From the NCBI RefSeq assembly GCF_012272835.1, contig NZ_JAAWWK010000002.1, positions 186,001 through 250,000 on the forward strand: DNA of 64,000 bases, in the 5' to 3' direction. How positions within the stretch are numbered: position 1 is the stretch's first letter; the number at the start of each line of letters is the position of its first letter. Below the pieces are notes generated by a model. The model was not told the DNA's origin, did no database searches, and saw only the letters and a program-made list of their open reading frames with translations. This document shows positions 23,680-35,495 of the stretch, piece by piece. The DNA comes from Spongiibacter thalassae (lineage in GTDB: Bacteria; Pseudomonadota; Gammaproteobacteria; Pseudomonadales; Spongiibacteraceae). The position numbers and the translations under genes were made by a program.

Positions 23680-23758
23680 TTGTCGTCGTTCCCCGGTGCG
23701 CGGTAATGCGCGGCTGATCGCAAACTAACAATAACGATATTGCACATTGGGGAGCACT

Positions 23759-25915
23759 ATGAAATCCATTTACAGGTGGGCGAAATTGCTATTGCTTGCC
23801 GCCTCGGCAGGCGCGGCATGGCCTGTGTGGTCGCTGTCGCCGACCGACGTCAACACCGACACCATCAAGGCCAATACGCCAGAGCATTGGCTGTCCTACG
23901 GCAAGGACTACAACGAGCAGCGCTATAGCGAATTGGCGCAGATTCACACCCACAACGTCGGCGATCTCGGCCTGGCCTGGGCCTTCGATACGGATTTTAA
24001 CCGCGGCCTTGAAGCGACCCCGATTGTGGTTGACGGGGTGATGTACCTCACCGGCAACTGGAGTGTGGTGTACGCACTGGAGGCGCGCAGCGGCAAACTC
24101 CTGTGGAAGTATGATCCTAAAGTGCCCAGAGAATGGGCAAAGATGGCCTGCTGCGACGTGGTCAACCGCGGAGTGGCGGTGTATGAAGGCAAGGTGATTG
24201 TCGGCACCCTGGATGCCAGACTGGTGGCGCTGGATGCCCGCGATGGCTCGCCGTTGTGGTCGGTACAGGCGGCCGATATTACTGAGTACCCCTATACCAT
24301 TACCGGTGCGCCGAGGGTGGCCAAGGGTCTGGTGTACATCGGCAATGGCGGCGCGGAGTACGGTGTGCGTGGTTCGGTCAGTGCCTTTGATGTCAACACC
24401 GGTGAGCTGCGCTGGCGCTTTTATACGGTTCCCGGCGATCCCGCAAAGGGTTTTGAAAACAACGCTATGGCCGCGGCCGCGACGACCTGGACGGGGGAGT
24501 GGTGGAAGTCGGGGGGCGGCGGTACCGTTTGGGACTCCATTGTCTACGACCCGGAACTTGACCAACTTTATATCGGCGTGGGTAATGGCTCCCCGTGGAA
24601 TCACAAAGTTCGCAGCCCTGAGGGCGGCGATAACCTTTATCTATCCTCAGTGGTTGCACTCGACCCGGATACCGGTGACTACCTGTGGCATTACCAGGAG
24701 ACGCCGGGGGAGAGTTGGGACTACACCGCGACCCAGCACATCATGCTGGCAACGATGGAGTTTGAAGGGCGTTCCCGAAAGGTCATCTGGCATGCCCCGA
24801 AAAACGGCTTCTTTTTTGTCATCGATCGGGAGTCCGGCGAACTGTTGTCTGCCGATCCGTACACCAAAGTGAATTGGGCAAGCCATTATGATATGGCGAC
24901 GGGGCGACCTGTTGAAACCGATAATGCCCGCTATGAGGACGGGTTGGCTTTGGTAAGACCGTCGTCGATGGGCGCCCACAACTGGCAGCCAATGGCTTAC
25001 AGCCCGCAGACCGGCTATGTTTACATTCCGGTGATTGATGCGCTGTTTGGCTACCAAGACGCTGCGGAATACGTTCACCAGTGGGGACAGTGGAACCTCG
25101 GTGTGCCACTGGAGCAGGAGGCCTTGCCAGACCCGATTCTTGCCCAGCTTATGGTCAGGAAGATGACCCGGGGAGCATTGCTTGCCTGGGACCCGAAATC
25201 CCGGCAGGCGGCGTGGCGACTGGAACATACCCTTACCTGGAACGGAGGCTTGCTGGCGACAGCCGGGGGGCTGGTCTTTCAGGGCACCGCCGACGGACAG
25301 GTGATCGCCGTTCGGGCCGACACCGGCAAATCATTGTGGTCCTTCGATGCCAAAACCGGTGTGATGGGCTCGCCGGTAACCTATGCGGTTGACGGCGAAC
25401 AATATGTCACCATTCTTGCCGGTTGGGGCGGGGCATTTGGCCTGATTGGCGGATTGGAGCGCACTGAGGCACCGCCGCCAAGTCGGGTACTCACCTTTAA
25501 ACTGGGTGCGGCAGGGACCTTGCCGGACAATCCCCCCAAGCAGATTCACGAGCCGCCCGCGCGGATAACCGAAGATGCTGAGGTCTTGACCCGAGGCCGC
25601 CAGCTCTATTTCAAATACTGCGCGGGATGCCACGGTAATGATGTTATCGCCAACGGCGCGATACCGGACTTGCGTCACCTGCCCCGGGCATTTCACGACA
25701 ACTTCAATGCCATTGTCCTCGATGGTGCCATGCGTAAATTGGGCATGGTCGGTTTTGGCGATGTGCTGAGCGAGAAAGATGCGCTGGCCGTGCATGCCTA
25801 CATCCTTGAGCAGGCCAATATCGACAGCGAATTGCGCGCTCAGCCCCACTGGTGGCGGCAGGTTAAACATTGGCTGTTCGGGCTGCTGGCCGAGGTGCTC
25901 AGCTGGTTTTTTTAA
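23759..25915 (+). CDS. PQQ-dependent quinohaemoprotein alcohol dehydrogenase
   Basis: The 718-aa periplasmic enzyme has a signal peptide (about residues 1-28, MKSIYRWAKLLLLAASAGA) and an eight-bladed PQQ propeller with tryptophan-docking repeats (WKYDPKVP, LRWRFYTVPGDP, YLWHYQETPGESWDYTATQHI, SLWSFDAKTGV). The adjacent-cysteine disulfide of PQQ alcohol dehydrogenases is present (KMACCDVVNRG). A C-terminal cytochrome c domain has CAGCH (about residue 620) and a Met further on (KLGMVGFG). It oxidises primary alcohols and passes electrons through haem c to the respiratory chain. It needs PQQ, Ca or lanthanide; no pqq genes are in the window. The start ATG 23759 has GGGGAG 5 bp upstream. Substrate range cannot be deduced. 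Confidence 0.95.
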   Translation: MKSIYRWAKLLLLAASAGAAWPVWSLSPTDVNTDTIKANTPEHWLSYGKDYNEQRYSELAQIHTHNVGDLGLAWAFDTDFNRGLEATPIVVDGVMYLTGNWSVVYALEARSGKLLWKYDPKVPREWAKMACCDVVNRGVAVYEGKVIVGTLDARLVALDARDGSPLWSVQAADITEYPYTITGAPRVAKGLVYIGNGGAEYGVRGSVSAFDVNTGELRWRFYTVPGDPAKGFENNAMAAAATTWTGEWWKSGGGGTVWDSIVYDPELDQLYIGVGNGSPWNHKVRSPEGGDNLYLSSVVALDPDTGDYLWHYQETPGESWDYTATQHIMLATMEFEGRSRKVIWHAPKNGFFFVIDRESGELLSADPYTKVNWASHYDMATGRPVETDNARYEDGLALVRPSSMGAHNWQPMAYSPQTGYVYIPVIDALFGYQDAAEYVHQWGQWNLGVPLEQEALPDPILAQLMVRKMTRGALLAWDPKSRQAAWRLEHTLTWNGGLLATAGGLVFQGTADGQVIAVRADTGKSLWSFDAKTGVMGSPVTYAVDGEQYVTILAGWGGAFGLIGGLERTEAPPPSRVLTFKLGAAGTLPDNPPKQIHEPPARITEDAEVLTRGRQLYFKYCAGCHGNDVIANGAIPDLRHLPRAFHDNFNAIVLDGAMRKLGMVGFGDVLSEKDALAVHAYILEQANIDSELRAQPHWWRQVKHWLFGLLAEVLSWFF

Positions 25916-30623: not shown

Positions 30624-33600
30624 ATGCCTGTTTCTACAAGCTGCGTGCGTGGCGCGTTTGCCGCCCTCCTGTTTGGCGTCACGCTGGGAGGATGTGGCGG
30701 TGGTTCCTCGTCATCATCTCCCAGCAGTAGTAATGATCTCGCCGTGCCAGGTTCCGGTGCGGCAGATTTTACTACGGGGGCCTTCCTTGATGGCCCCGTT
30801 GGTGGTTTGCGTTATCGCCTTAATGGCAGCGACAGTACCTTCGAGACGAATGCCAAGGGGCAATTCCGCTACCAGCCGGGTGACCAGGTCACTTTTATGA
30901 TCGGTGGCGTAACCCTGGGGCCTGTCGCTCCGGCCACAGTGGTGACCCCTGCAATGATTGCGAATGGTCTGCCGGGCAGCCTCAGCGAGCGCGAACAGGC
31001 GGGGATAAATATCGCTCGTGTGATGATGACCCTGGACTTCGACGGCGATCCGGAAAACGGCATTACCTTGTGGCCGGCCTTGCACCGACTGGCCGCCGAC
31101 CTCACTTTGGCGCCCGCTGACTGGGGTTCGGAAGATTTTGACGCTATGGCTTTAGCGGGCTTTGCCCGCCAGATCAGTGTCGAAAGAGGGCGCGGCGCTA
31201 GTCTGGTTAGCGATGACGTGGCGCGGCGCCATTTGGCAACGGTGGCCAGGGATTTGCGCGATGGTCGCTTTGATGGCGATGGCGGGGCAGATGGTGACCG
31301 CGATGGTGTGAATGATGTCGCGGACCGCTGCCCACTGGTCGGCGGTATGATGGCGTTTGAGGGTTGCCCCGATCAGCAATCGCTAAATGATGATAGTGAC
31401 GGTGATGGTGTCGTCAACGTAGACGACAACTGCCCGGCGGTTACCAACGCCGAGCAGGGCGATCTCGACGGCGATGGTGTGGGCGATGTATGCGATCGCG
31501 ACATTGATGGTGACGGCCTCTCTAATGACGCTGAAACCCGGCTCGGGCTCGATCCGCGCAATGTCGATTCCGACCGCGACACCGTTGCGGACGGTGACGA
31601 CGCCTTTCCCCTGAGTAATCAGTACAGCAAAGACAGCGATATTGATGGTATCGCCGACGATCTGGATTTATGCCCATTGCATGACACCGGTGAGTCGGCG
31701 GATCAGCAGGCCGATGTCGATGGTGATCGTCTGGGTGATGCCTGTGACAACGAAGACAATCGCGACAGCGACGGGGACGGTATTCAGAACCATGCCGATG
31801 ACTGTCCGTCCACGCAGAATAGCGATGGCCTGGATGCCAAAGGCTGTGCGGATTCCGATCGCGCCGCCAATGACCTGGATGGCGATGGCGTCGATAATGA
31901 CGCCGATGTGTGTCCTGCCACCTCCCGTGACAGTGTCGCCGACGTTGATGGCCAAGGTTGTGCACCGGAGCAGCGTGACAGTGATGAGGATGGCATTGAC
32001 GACCGCGCCGATGGGTGTCCGGGCAGTGCCAGCGGCGAGCCTGTCGACAGCGCAGGGTGTGATGCCAGCCAAAAAGACAGCGATGGTGACGGTGTTGCAG
32101 ACAGCGACGATGACTTTCCGAGCGACCCCAATGAAAGCGGCGACAGCGATGGCGACGGCATTGGTGACGCCACTGATAATTGCCCCGACACCCGTAATGC
32201 AGGGCAACAGGACTCCGATGGCGACCTGATCGGAGATGCCTGTGACACCCAGGACAATGCGGACACCGATGGCGATGGGGTTGAAAACCACCTCGATAAT
32301 TGTCCTCTGGTGGCGAATGCCGAGCAGGCCGATCAGGATGGCAACAATGTGGGGGATGCCTGTGAGGCAGATCCGCTGTTTGATTTTTTCGAGGCCAATG
32401 TGCACAGCAGTCTGACCATCTGCCGGGCCTGTCATGTACCTGAAGGCGTTGCCGATACTGACGATGGGCGCACTTTTCAGATGGCAAAGCAGGTGTCGGT
32501 GCGCGCTGATTTTGATCAGTTGTACCGCGACTGGACCGCCTTGGGCGGGGGTGTTCTCAGCAATCCGATATTGTTCAAAGCGAGCAATAGTCGGGCAACG
32601 GATCCCCACTCCGGCGGCAGGCAGTGGGACGTCGATAGCGCGCCGTATAACAATATGGCCCAACTGCTGAGCTGCTGGGAGGACCCGACCCAGTGCGACC
32701 TGATCGAACAAGCGCAGGAAGAACCGTTGCCCCTTTTGGGCAGTGCCCGGGGCGGCCATATCTGGTTTGATTACTGCGAGGGTGTGGTGGATGAAACTGG
32801 CCGACGCGTGTTGGGTCAGGATGGGCGCGCCATAACCCAACAGCAGGCAGCGGCTCGCAGCGACGATGCAATGTTGCCGCCGGATCCACGCGCTTTGGTG
32901 CTGCCGGGGGTGAACCAGGGCGACATCTTTGTTCCGGGTGATGAGAATGCGGTGGCGTTTAATGCCTTCTGGAAAAATTGCCATATTGATGAAGATGGCG
33001 ATGGTGTTCCGGAAAATCTGCAGGCCACAGCGGAGGGTGTTATCACCGAAAAGGCCCACCCGAAAACCTGTGGTGATCTGCGCCTGAGTATTGCGCGGGG
33101 CAAAGTGGTGATGGGGGTGACTCAACTGCCTCCGCCGGAAATGTTGCCGGATTGCTCCCTGCCGGAAAATATTGCGTCGAGTCCCTACTGTAATACCCTT
33201 GGTGAACTGATTCGGCCGGGTTCTACCTTTGCGGCTTATGATCACGACAATGCCGGAGCGATTGCTGCCGATGCCTACAACCTGCTTTACAAGGTTTGGA
33301 ATTCGGGCGCAGAGAGTCGCCCGGAGAATTTTGATCGCATTGCCGCAGAGCGTTATGGCATGGGCTGGGATAGCAAGGTGGATAATCCCTATCCACTGCC
33401 CGGTGAGAACCCCAATGATCCCTCGACTTACCAGGACGGATCTACGCGCCTAGACAAAGGCGGCTCCGGTCAGCTCCCGGTTGGCCTGATCCAGTTGCGC
33501 GATGAGGTAGGTAACTACAGTGGCAATATCGGTATCAACTGCCAGGCCTGTCACGGTATTACCATCGGCGATGACTTTATCTGGGGCGGCGGGGGCGCGA

Positions 33601-35495
33601 TGCTCGACCTCGGCACCTTTGGTGCCGACCTGGAAGCGGTGAATGCCTACTATTATGAGTACCTGGGCGATTTTGATCCCAATACCGACAGGCCTGTGGG
33701 TGTCGGTTTCGGCCTCGATCGCGTTGGTGTTGCCGGGCGTACCCGCGGTACCAACAATGCCCAATTTTCCAATGTGACTGCGGCGGTGGGCGCGGTTTCT
33801 TCCGATGATGGTGGCAGTCTGCTGTTTACCGAGGGCGATGCGTCCGGTGTTGTCGACGTGCTAACCAGTGGTTCTACCGCCACCGGTGATACGCCAGCCT
33901 GGTGGAACGTGGGGCGGCGCACAGTGAAATTTGTCGATGCGATGGCGCCCGCCGATGCTGTGCGTGTCGATATGGCACTGTTCTTTCCCCTGTTTGAGGT
34001 CACGCCTTCGGTGCCAGCGGGCTGTGAGCCGAGTTCGCCCGACACCTGGGCGGAGCATTGCTTTTCGGGCGGTGGAGACCAGTTTGCCGGCTTGCTCGGA
34101 TTCGATACCGGTCCCTGTGACGCCTCGGCCTTCGATTTTGCCAACAATGATGCTCGCGCCGACTGTTTTCTGCACGGCTGGCGGGAGTTCAGTGAGCGCG
34201 TTGGTGTGGACTACTCGCCGAGTGAGGAGTGTGAGGCGTACCTTTATCAGCCGTTGAACCCCCAGGCGTGGATGGCCTGTGGCTTCCGCCAGAGCCCCTT
34301 CGGTGAGGGGATGGAAGAAAGCGACTGGTATCGCTTCTTTAATGCCATATTCGGCGTGTCTTCGGGAGGTGCAGAGCCCGGTCAGCCGTCATTCCCCAAT
34401 TTCAGCGAGCAGGAGCGTCAAAACCAGTTTGAAGCTGCGGTGCGCTGGGTCGGTGAAAATGCGCAATACGCCGACCACTGGTTAATGACACTGAAATCCC
34501 CGGCCTATCCCGAAGCGTTGATCGACACCGGATTGGCGGAAGTGGGTGCCATTCTGTTTCACGAGAAAGACCTGTGGGCCGGGCGCGAAAACGCCGCTGA
34601 CCTCGTTGAAATGAAGACAAAAGGCTACGCGGGAAATGGCTCCTGTGCCAGTTGTCACGGGGCGTACTCACCCCGTTATGTCAACGATGAGCGCTACCTG
34701 GATGACCCGATGCTGGAAGGCCTCGCCAGCTACGTCACTCCTATTAACGCCATCGGCACAGATCGTGTGCGTTTTGATACCTATATGGCGTCCAGCTACG
34801 ATTTCGAGTCGGCGCAGGCCAGCGGAGAAATCGGTGGTATTTCCGAGGGCAGTCACCAGTCGGGGGTCAATAAGGCGAATTCGGAAGAGTATATTTTTTA
34901 CGCCGAGACCGAGGGCCTGAACCCCGATGGCGGGAACTTTGCCGAAGGGGATTGCCGGGCGCAGAACGTGACGGCTCAGCAACGTGATCACCTGGGCAGA
35001 GAGCGGCCACTGGGTTATACCGCTCCGCCGCTCTACGGCGTCTGGGCGACGGCGCCGTATCTGCATAATGGCTCGGTACCGACCATAGAGACGCTGTTAA
35101 ACTCTGCGGCTCGCCCGAAGGTATGGCGTCGCAAGTCAAAGCCGAACACCCTCGGTGAGGAGTACGTGATGGGCTACGATTCAGCGCTATCGGCCTACGA
35201 TCACCAAGCGATGGGCTGGCAGTTTGAGGTGCTGGATTGCAGTAGTAATGTGACCACCTGCAGTGTGAACGATATGTTGATGTCCGCGGCAAAACCGGTG
35301 GTGACGGAGGTGTACGGCAATGTGCTGCTGAGCTGGAACGTGACGACGCCGCCGGTACTGAGCAATGACGATGTGGAGAAGCGCAAGATCTACAACACGA
35401 CACTGCATAGCCAGAGTAATAGTGGTCATGCTTTTACCGACGTGCTCACCAAAACGGAGCGCCAGGCCATCATTGAATACCTGAAAACCCTGTGA
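30624..35495 (+). CDS. Giant lipoprotein: thrombospondin type 3 repeats fused to a multihaem MauG/RoxA-like cytochrome
   Basis: The 1623-aa protein opens with a lipoprotein signal (GVTLGGCGGGSSSSS, lipidated Cys about residue 24). A short beta domain follows (about 45-215; DGPVGGLRYRLNGSDSTFETNAKGQFRY), then a long run of calcium-binding thrombospondin type 3 repeats (about 217-583; many DxDGDGxxDxxDxCP units). A cytochrome region follows with three CxxCH haem sites at C600 (CRACH), C973 (CQACH) and C1341 (CASCH). The C-terminus (APPLYGVWATAPYLHNGSVPTIETLL) is the MauG/RoxA/di-haem-peroxidase signature. It is therefore probably a surface-anchored redox enzyme with a Ca-stiffened stalk. RoxA-like enzymes cleave polyisoprene; substrate here is unknown. 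Spacing between the last two haems is longer than in RoxA as I remember it. Nothing nearby suggests a partner. Confidence 0.8.
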   Translation: MPVSTSCVRGAFAALLFGVTLGGCGGGSSSSSPSSSNDLAVPGSGAADFTTGAFLDGPVGGLRYRLNGSDSTFETNAKGQFRYQPGDQVTFMIGGVTLGPVAPATVVTPAMIANGLPGSLSEREQAGINIARVMMTLDFDGDPENGITLWPALHRLAADLTLAPADWGSEDFDAMALAGFARQISVERGRGASLVSDDVARRHLATVARDLRDGRFDGDGGADGDRDGVNDVADRCPLVGGMMAFEGCPDQQSLNDDSDGDGVVNVDDNCPAVTNAEQGDLDGDGVGDVCDRDIDGDGLSNDAETRLGLDPRNVDSDRDTVADGDDAFPLSNQYSKDSDIDGIADDLDLCPLHDTGESADQQADVDGDRLGDACDNEDNRDSDGDGIQNHADDCPSTQNSDGLDAKGCADSDRAANDLDGDGVDNDADVCPATSRDSVADVDGQGCAPEQRDSDEDGIDDRADGCPGSASGEPVDSAGCDASQKDSDGDGVADSDDDFPSDPNESGDSDGDGIGDATDNCPDTRNAGQQDSDGDLIGDACDTQDNADTDGDGVENHLDNCPLVANAEQADQDGNNVGDACEADPLFDFFEANVHSSLTICRACHVPEGVADTDDGRTFQMAKQVSVRADFDQLYRDWTALGGGVLSNPILFKASNSRATDPHSGGRQWDVDSAPYNNMAQLLSCWEDPTQCDLIEQAQEEPLPLLGSARGGHIWFDYCEGVVDETGRRVLGQDGRAITQQQAAARSDDAMLPPDPRALVLPGVNQGDIFVPGDENAVAFNAFWKNCHIDEDGDGVPENLQATAEGVITEKAHPKTCGDLRLSIARGKVVMGVTQLPPPEMLPDCSLPENIASSPYCNTLGELIRPGSTFAAYDHDNAGAIAADAYNLLYKVWNSGAESRPENFDRIAAERYGMGWDSKVDNPYPLPGENPNDPSTYQDGSTRLDKGGSGQLPVGLIQLRDEVGNYSGNIGINCQACHGITIGDDFIWGGGGAMLDLGTFGADLEAVNAYYYEYLGDFDPNTDRPVGVGFGLDRVGVAGRTRGTNNAQFSNVTAAVGAVSSDDGGSLLFTEGDASGVVDVLTSGSTATGDTPAWWNVGRRTVKFVDAMAPADAVRVDMALFFPLFEVTPSVPAGCEPSSPDTWAEHCFSGGGDQFAGLLGFDTGPCDASAFDFANNDARADCFLHGWREFSERVGVDYSPSEECEAYLYQPLNPQAWMACGFRQSPFGEGMEESDWYRFFNAIFGVSSGGAEPGQPSFPNFSEQERQNQFEAAVRWVGENAQYADHWLMTLKSPAYPEALIDTGLAEVGAILFHEKDLWAGRENAADLVEMKTKGYAGNGSCASCHGAYSPRYVNDERYLDDPMLEGLASYVTPINAIGTDRVRFDTYMASSYDFESAQASGEIGGISEGSHQSGVNKANSEEYIFYAETEGLNPDGGNFAEGDCRAQNVTAQQRDHLGRERPLGYTAPPLYGVWATAPYLHNGSVPTIETLLNSAARPKVWRRKSKPNTLGEEYVMGYDSALSAYDHQAMGWQFEVLDCSSNVTTCSVNDMLMSAAKPVVTEVYGNVLLSWNVTTPPVLSNDDVEKRKIYNTTLHSQSNSGHAFTDVLTKTERQAIIEYLKTL

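Follow-up and report, generated by a model that had tools for sequence, protein, structure and literature searches.

A RoxC-type three-haem lipoprotein on a thrombospondin type 3 stalk in Spongiibacter, and the gene linkage of its relatives to a DUF3570 flavin module

The 64,000-nucleotide stretch of Spongiibacter thalassae DNA analysed here (the window) encodes a 1623-residue protein in which a lipoprotein signal, a long run of thrombospondin type 3 (TSP3) repeats and three haem motifs precede or lie within a RoxA-like C-terminal part. This locus raises the questions of which family such a protein belongs to, what its core may do and what the third haem is for. The original prediction had described this anatomy, and the analysis bears it out (Table 1). 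The open reading frame and its lipobox cysteine were recovered, the latter by pattern; the repeat stretch of predicted Ca-binding type, put at about 365 residues, measures 368; and the three CxxCH motifs (C600, C973 and C1341) lie where they had been placed.

These motifs are not chance occurrences: more than one CxxCH appeared in 0 of 2000 shuffles of the protein, and its 13 DxDxDG copies compare with a shuffled mean of 0.33 and a maximum of 3 (500 shuffles). Pfam TSP_3 matched in 9 stretches (E 1.2e-34; 118.1 bits, above the gathering score of 25). RoxA-like_Cyt-c (PF21419) matched residues 1464-1502 (E 5.9e-22), in agreement with the predicted RoxA-like C-terminus, and residues 1-219 had no Pfam match at E <= 0.1. 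The computed pI is 4.09 for the mature protein and 4.47 for the core. The gene is flanked by a transglycosylase gene on one side and an open reading frame without a Pfam match on the other. Elsewhere in the window (23747-25915), a PQQ dehydrogenase-type protein with a C-terminal cytochrome c domain (Pfam) is encoded behind enoyl-CoA hydratase and acyltransferase genes.

Table 1. Features of the gene and its protein, in window coordinates
Feature	Position	Strand	Basis
Whole gene, TSP3-stalked three-haem RoxC-type lipoprotein, 1623 aa from ATG	30624..35495	+	ORF call, Pfam/NCBIfam
Signal peptide and lipobox LGGC24	30624..30695	+	pattern only
N-terminal domain, about 165 aa (aa 40-205), alignable in the S. 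pelagi orthologue	30741..31238	+	alignment
TSP3 repeat stretch, aa 216-583, pI 4.05	31269..32372	+	Pfam, motif count
N-terminal ("third") haem domain, aa 585-700	32376..32723	+	alignment, predicted structure
Haem motif CRACH, C600-H604	32421..32435	+	CxxCH pattern
RoxA-fold core, aa 701-1623	32724..35492	+	alignment, fold prediction, fold search
Core haem 1 motif CQACH, C973-H977, in the place of RoxA's O2-binding haem	33540..33554	+	alignment to RoxA
V1104, position equivalent to RoxA W302	33933..33935	+	alignment to RoxA
L1119, position equivalent to RoxA F317	33978..33980	+	alignment to RoxA
Cys-containing insertion of about 150 aa, aa 1123-1273, close behind the F317 position	33990..34442	+	alignment
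Core haem 2 motif CASCH, C1341-H1345	34644..34658	+	alignment to RoxA
PF21419 RoxA-like_Cyt-c segment, containing PYLHNGSVP	35013..35129	+	Pfam
H1602, aligned with RoxA H641 (second axial ligand of haem 2)	35427..35429	+	alignment to RoxA

The C-terminal 1039 residues (585-1623; structure prediction had been suggested for 590-1620) were predicted to adopt the RoxA fold (pTM 0.84, mean pLDDT 77.8). In a fold search of the core, the sole PDB match at E <= 0.001 was RoxA (4b2n, E 4.9e-29, 23% identity). The protein thus resembles RoxA and RoxB in its fold, in both core haems and in the H641 equivalent. Across a 60-row alignment, C973, C1341 and their histidines are kept in 60/60 rows, and the H1602 position is His in 59, with a gap in the remaining one. 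The C600 haem belongs to an optional domain, with at least three CxxCH motifs present in 39/60 rows. Within alignment A1 (10 rows), the core insertion is found only in the window protein and its Spongiibacter pelagi orthologue.

NCBIfam scores were below cut-off for all three Rox families: 632.1 bits for RoxC (NF051462, cut-off 900), 560 for RoxB (cut-off 900) and 349 for RoxA (cut-off 1000). The S. pelagi orthologue scored 656.4 bits against NF051462, and a paralogue from the window's own genome (L003) scored 877 against RoxB, cut-off 900. According to a 2024 review, most RoxCs are lipoproteins and many carry a third haem at the N-terminus; they lack some of the residues that active enzymes conserve, e.g. 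F317 or W302, and have no known function. With 243 sequences they form the largest Rox cluster, versus 117 and 98 for the others (PMC10837239). The window protein has the lipobox (by pattern), an extra N-terminal haem that aligns to those of RoxCs, the loss of W302 and F317 and the acidic pI. It is a RoxC variant, a known fold in an extraordinary architecture. The original prediction had taken its novelty from the background that RoxA and MauG enzymes are di-haem and soluble; this basis fell away, since the review already reports three haems on a lipoprotein for many RoxCs (PMC10837239), and that combination is not new. The C-terminal part does fall in an established family, as the prediction had allowed, but not in one with an established function.

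The closest comparison is with Fontimonas thermophila RoxC: both have a lipobox, an extra haem at the N-terminus, a core of RoxA fold and an acidic pI, and both lack F317. The window protein differs in having L rather than A at the F317 position and V rather than F at W302, and it adds the 368-residue TSP3 stretch and the 150-residue core insertion. The mapping used here assigns F at W302 and A at F317 to the Fontimonas protein, reproducing the table of the review (PMC10837239). RoxA35Y and RoxB35Y are described there as Sec-secreted two-haem enzymes of 70-72 kDa without the extra haem (PMC10837239), whereas the window protein has a lipobox and a third haem. Relative to RoxA, V1104 stands for W302 and L1119 for F317, leaving the F317 equivalent absent; RoxB likewise has V at W302. 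Loss of F317 was rejected as a marker of the extra haem, as F is kept in 17/39 three-haem and 14/21 two-haem rows of the 60-row alignment.

The long TSP3 stalk on a Rox protein is new. In a profile recount, it was present in 3 of 134 distinct Rox ORFs of at least 600 residues (the window gene counted whole, though the recount had a cut piece of it), all in two genomes of one genus: the window gene, the paralogue L003 (1127 aa) and the orthologue in S. pelagi KMU-158 (1808 aa). Of the architecture that the prediction had proposed searching for, the joining of TSP3 to a Rox core therefore stands as a distinctive feature, and the three haems on a lipoprotein do not. By title, no paper on a TSP3-cytochrome fusion was found in the open-licence PMC literature. 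Among the relatives kept (the best 80 of 153), the S. pelagi orthologue is 54.6% identical to the window protein over 1472 aligned columns; it has four CxxCH motifs in the order TSP3, haem domain, TSP3, haem domain, Rox core. A Rox protein of Zhongshania antarctica (L023, identical to L046; 880 aa) has two TSP3-type motifs between its lipobox and the extra-haem domain (Pfam TSP_3 21.2 bits, below the cut-off of 25) and is perhaps an intermediate. Among ten further regions, chosen for long frames or, in one case (G007), for the Z. antarctica gene, the Rox ORFs of eight had no more than one TSP3-type motif each.

The three-haem Rox proteins show other arrangements as well. The TSP3-bearing paralogue matches "choice-of-anchor U" ahead of its TSP3 stretch (L003:700-966; NF041766, 77.9 bits against 32). 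In two three-haem Rox ORFs of another genome (L128 and L129, G690), the core is separated from the extra-haem domain by long linkers rich in Ser and Gly, a different type of spacer. In the open-licence PMC literature a single paper was found on RoxC and rubber, and PMC10731047 reportedly mentions rubber oxygenase, Zhongshania and Spongiibacter.

The idea that the extra haem may wire the protein to the cell is supported by the gene neighbourhoods of relatives, and because of them it is stronger than could be known when it was put forward. Upstream of the S. pelagi orthologue, on the same strand, lie redoxin, DUF4266, DUF3570 and ApbE genes; the Rox gene starts 235 bp after ApbE, and its distance from DUF3570 is under 10 kb. 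No DUF3570 lies as close to the window gene, which is on contig C6. The sole DUF3570 match of its genome (E <= 1e-20, among the matches listed) is on contig C11, where redoxin-DUF4266-DUF3570 and an ApbE stand among RoxC paralogues. A ParDE-type toxin-antitoxin-like ORF pair lies, by eye, between DUF3570 and ApbE in this genome (L034:18763-19400).

To place these neighbourhoods in context, genomes of the window's order were scored, with up to three candidates per genome. A RoxC match covering the N-terminal haem domain (a family match starting at position 30 or earlier, the CxxCH not being checked in each) was present in 13/293 genomes, and DUF3570 lies within 10 kb of it in 13/13 and within 5 kb in 11/13, as against 1/6 genomes with two-haem matches only. 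DUF3570 itself occurs in 109/293 genomes (among the matches listed). Random placement, with each genome taken as one uncut molecule, gave a mean of 0.21 genomes with linkage and a maximum of 4 in 20,000 simulations, versus 13 observed. Counted by gene, 17/23 extra-haem and 2/18 two-haem matches have DUF3570 within 10 kb. That extra-haem RoxC genes are linked to this module is new, and no paper in the open-licence PMC literature was found to treat rubber oxygenase and flavinylation together. We read the linkage as functional; shared ancestry accounts for some of it, since the 13 genomes belong to two families.

A class-wide sample had matches in 3/369 genomes, the window's own included, and led to a second order. 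Here DUF3570 lies within 10 kb in 14/26 extra-haem genomes (two of the 26 being genomes with a separate extra-haem gene) and within 25 kb in 18/26, leaving 12/26 without it inside 10 kb. DUF3570 is found anywhere in 25/26 of these genomes versus 45/85 overall; genome G678 has no match anywhere. By gene the linkage is much weaker (21/71 extra-haem versus 7/32 two-haem matches within 10 kb), because these genomes hold many scattered copies. One genome, G724, counts as two-haem because its match begins at the edge of a contig.

Named full-length loci provide a further count. DUF3570 is present in 13/29 three-haem loci (absent from the flanks of the other 16/29) and in 1/29 two-haem loci (Fisher p 4e-4); several loci share a genome, and the test left out 14/72 named loci shorter than 21 kb (one three-haem with DUF3570, one three-haem without, and 12 two-haem or partial without). 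Locus and genome counts are not independent, since the sets overlap (G015/L045, G729/L116, G723/L070 and G007/L046). In the sole two-haem locus with DUF3570 (L116, on the same contig as L118), the extra-haem domain is present as a separate ORF. Gene order varies, with Rox before redoxin in L119 and L120, and after DUF3570 or ApbE in L045, L080 and L121.

In two genomes (G324 and G729), the extra-haem domain forms its own lipoprotein gene with a second CxxCH, adjoining DUF3570 and near a two-haem Rox gene; in G324 it overlaps the DUF4266 gene. This separate lipoprotein gene beside the flavin module is also new. A profile of the domain matched in 28/85 second-order genomes, and 80/90 of its matches there lie in open frames of at least 759 residues, the size of a Rox gene, the frames not being checked one by one. 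In another genome, G690, a 441-residue lipoprotein has three tandem extra-haem domains (L132:6118-7443, contig C245), and the DUF3570 matches of that genome lie on other contigs. In a tree of the 60 rows, built by a quick method, the window protein and the S. pelagi orthologue pair with full support within a clade of three-haem proteins. Starred branches force 9 of the 10 changes of the extra-haem label that the tree needs, and a one-time gain or loss of the domain was rejected. A tandem double-RoxC fusion suggested by a 1703-residue open frame (G014) was likewise rejected, the ORF list giving two separate ORFs.

The linked module has been seen before, and a single paper covers both DUF3570 and DUF4266 in the open-licence PMC literature. 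DUF3570 is flavinylated at two sites by its cognate ApbE on co-expression in E. coli, with an uncertain role (PMC8238504). The genes found here match that DUF3570-ApbE-DUF4266-thioredoxin module in gene families and flavinylation motifs (PMC8238504), and differ in being linked to RoxC genes and in a fold that suggests an outer-membrane barrel; the words "rubber", "RoxA" and "barrel" have 0 occurrences in the main text of PMC8238504. Both [ST]GA[ST] motifs are kept in 13/13 linked DUF3570s of alignment A3. The predicted DUF3570 fold (pLDDT 82.1, pTM 0.80) has both motifs inside strands, and its fold search returned outer-membrane barrels, OpdK being the best (E 1.8e-10), with query TM-scores of 0.35-0.53 in the listed rows. 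At rank 35 stood 6r2q_B, a chain of the Mtr complex, which we take to be MtrB. DUF3570 is therefore a predicted outer-membrane barrel whose class is clear and whose detail is not.

We propose that the window protein is a surface lipoprotein Rox haem oxygenase that is fed electrons by the flavinylated DUF3570 module through its N-terminal haem, and give this reading a probability of about 0.46. Anchored in the outer surface by its lipidated Cys24, this member of the RoxC-like branch of the Rox di-haem oxygenases would be held off the membrane by the predicted Ca-binding TSP3 spacer; its RoxA-fold catalytic core would oxidise a hydrophobic substrate, and O2 would probably bind at haem 1. In contrast to RoxA and RoxB, the protein would draw electrons from outside, from the redoxin, DUF4266, DUF3570 barrel and ApbE module, which the window copy may reach although it is encoded elsewhere, and these would pass from the N-terminal haem to haem 2 and on to haem 1. 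RoxA F317L is mainly oxidised at rest and without stable O2, and initial reduction is presumably needed for its reactivation, according to the authors (PMC6797691). This behaviour, together with DUF3570 flavinylation, its motifs and the barrel fold, is what leads to the proposal of a reductant-dependent surface oxygenase. Of the surface oxidase or peroxidase on a stalk that had originally been envisaged, the lipidated protein, the RoxA-fold core and the Ca-binding-type spacer persist, whereas rubber is an unlikely substrate (W302V, F317L).

Several observations count against the proposal. RoxA is equally active in its fully oxidised and as-isolated states (PMC6797691), which means that a Rox core does not necessarily rely on an external reductant. 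The window gene is not near the module, and the unlinked second-order genomes (12/26) and three-haem loci (16/29) were given above. The linked ApbEs have no signal peptide by eye, which is awkward for flavinylation outside the cytosol; two RoxC-linked ApbEs (L035:599-1543 and L037:2798-3694) share MASPCEL near their start and, by eye, have no signal peptide, which an extracytosolic ApbE would need. The linked DUF3570 of G667 (L121) has a single [ST]GA[ST] motif. The extra haem does not track F317 loss, since many three-haem rows keep F, and of two expressed inactive RoxCs only the Fontimonas one has it (PMC10837239). Finally, the 368-residue spacer cannot itself conduct electrons.

A wider version of the proposal, which we hold to be somewhat unlikely, takes the extra-haem Rox lipoproteins as the surface end of a flavin-based outer-membrane electron conduit. 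A DUF3570 barrel with two covalent FMNs, in its wall or lumen, would play with flavins the part that MtrAB plays with haems, feeding a surface oxygenase by way of the modular N-terminal haem domain; in this lineage its reach would be extended by TSP3 stalks and by repetition of the haem domain, as with the four CxxCH motifs of S. pelagi. The gene linkage ties together two questions, that of a RoxC without known activity and that of a DUF3570 of uncertain purpose. The proposal predicts why a purified extra-haem RoxC looked inactive, its electron donor being missing. If true, insoluble substrates could be oxidised at the cell surface by a new route, and electron transfer across the outer membrane would gain a flavin-based mechanism. 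The proteins with TSP3 stalks and three or four haems are the extreme examples.

The same electron delivery could serve a surface peroxidase, with flavin-module electrons entering at the N-terminal haem and H2O2 or lipid hydroperoxides being reduced at the core. E. coli YhjA and the Aggregatibacter quinol peroxidase are three-haem bacterial peroxidases in which a di-haem core likewise follows an additional N-terminal haem; they differ in core family and in their inner-membrane location. An extra N-terminal haem with an electron-delivery module suits a reductase, and the core is related to di-haem cytochrome c peroxidases (NF040606, 119 bits, below the cut-off of 150); but RoxA is the only fold match at E <= 0.001, and RoxA lacks distal acid-base residues and has its haem destroyed by H2O2 (PMC6797691). 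The peroxidase reading is held to be unlikely.

If the protein were instead a rubber or isoprenoid dioxygenase that uses O2 as RoxA and RoxB do, self-sufficient and with accessory roles for the extra haem and the stalk, it would need no donor, and oxidised RoxA is active without added reductant (PMC6797691). The RoxA fold and haem ligands are kept, and the RoxB scores of the window protein and, closer to the cut-off, of L003 point the same way. Rubber cleavage is nonetheless unlikely because V1104 and L1119 replace W302 and F317; RoxA F317L and F317A have poor or no activity (PMC6797691), and the two expressed RoxCs showed no rubber oxygenase activity, stated as unpublished results in the review (PMC10837239). 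We consider this reading quite improbable.

Hints of substrates other than rubber come from the paralogues. Pfam places genes for a TonB receptor, an AraC regulator, a P450 and an alcohol dehydrogenase near them, and acyl-CoA dehydrogenase and AMP-ligase genes were recognised there by eye; these suit hydrophobic carbon sources and name none. They agree with an enzyme that oxygenates fatty acids or forms oxylipins, working on lipids of the outer membrane or the environment, like P. aeruginosa PA2077 and PA2078, RoxA-related di-haem enzymes whose substrates are unsaturated fatty acids (PMC4496055); the review suggests substrates of this kind for RoxCs (PMC10837239). Taken by itself this reading is very unlikely, and it is compatible with the flavin-fed oxygenase rather than excluding it. 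A MauG/MbnH-type enzyme oxidising Trp or Tyr of a partner protein is highly improbable: the NCBIfam matches are weak (TIGR03981 14.9 bits, TIGR04039 13.4 bits) and far under the cut-offs of 340 and 362.85, and DUF4266 is the sole small recurrent gene noticed in the loci listed with the module.

Returning to the oxygenase family as a whole, the window's own genome has four other Rox genes and one short remnant. In L007:1392-1641 (match G000:C6:351488-351625), a lipoprotein signal region is accompanied, in another frame, by the last approximately 46 Rox residues; this looks like a deleted Rox gene. In S. pelagi, an island of about 60 kb (L037-L040; G015:C23:301-359 kb) holds nine Rox genes by place, with TonB-receptor-like, AraC-like, P450-like and flavin-monooxygenase-like ORFs by eye. 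Nine Rox genes are likewise present in G014, split over two places. A Rox gene also occurs on a contig labelled Pedobacter (L087, a Bacteroidota MAG), by transfer or mis-binning.
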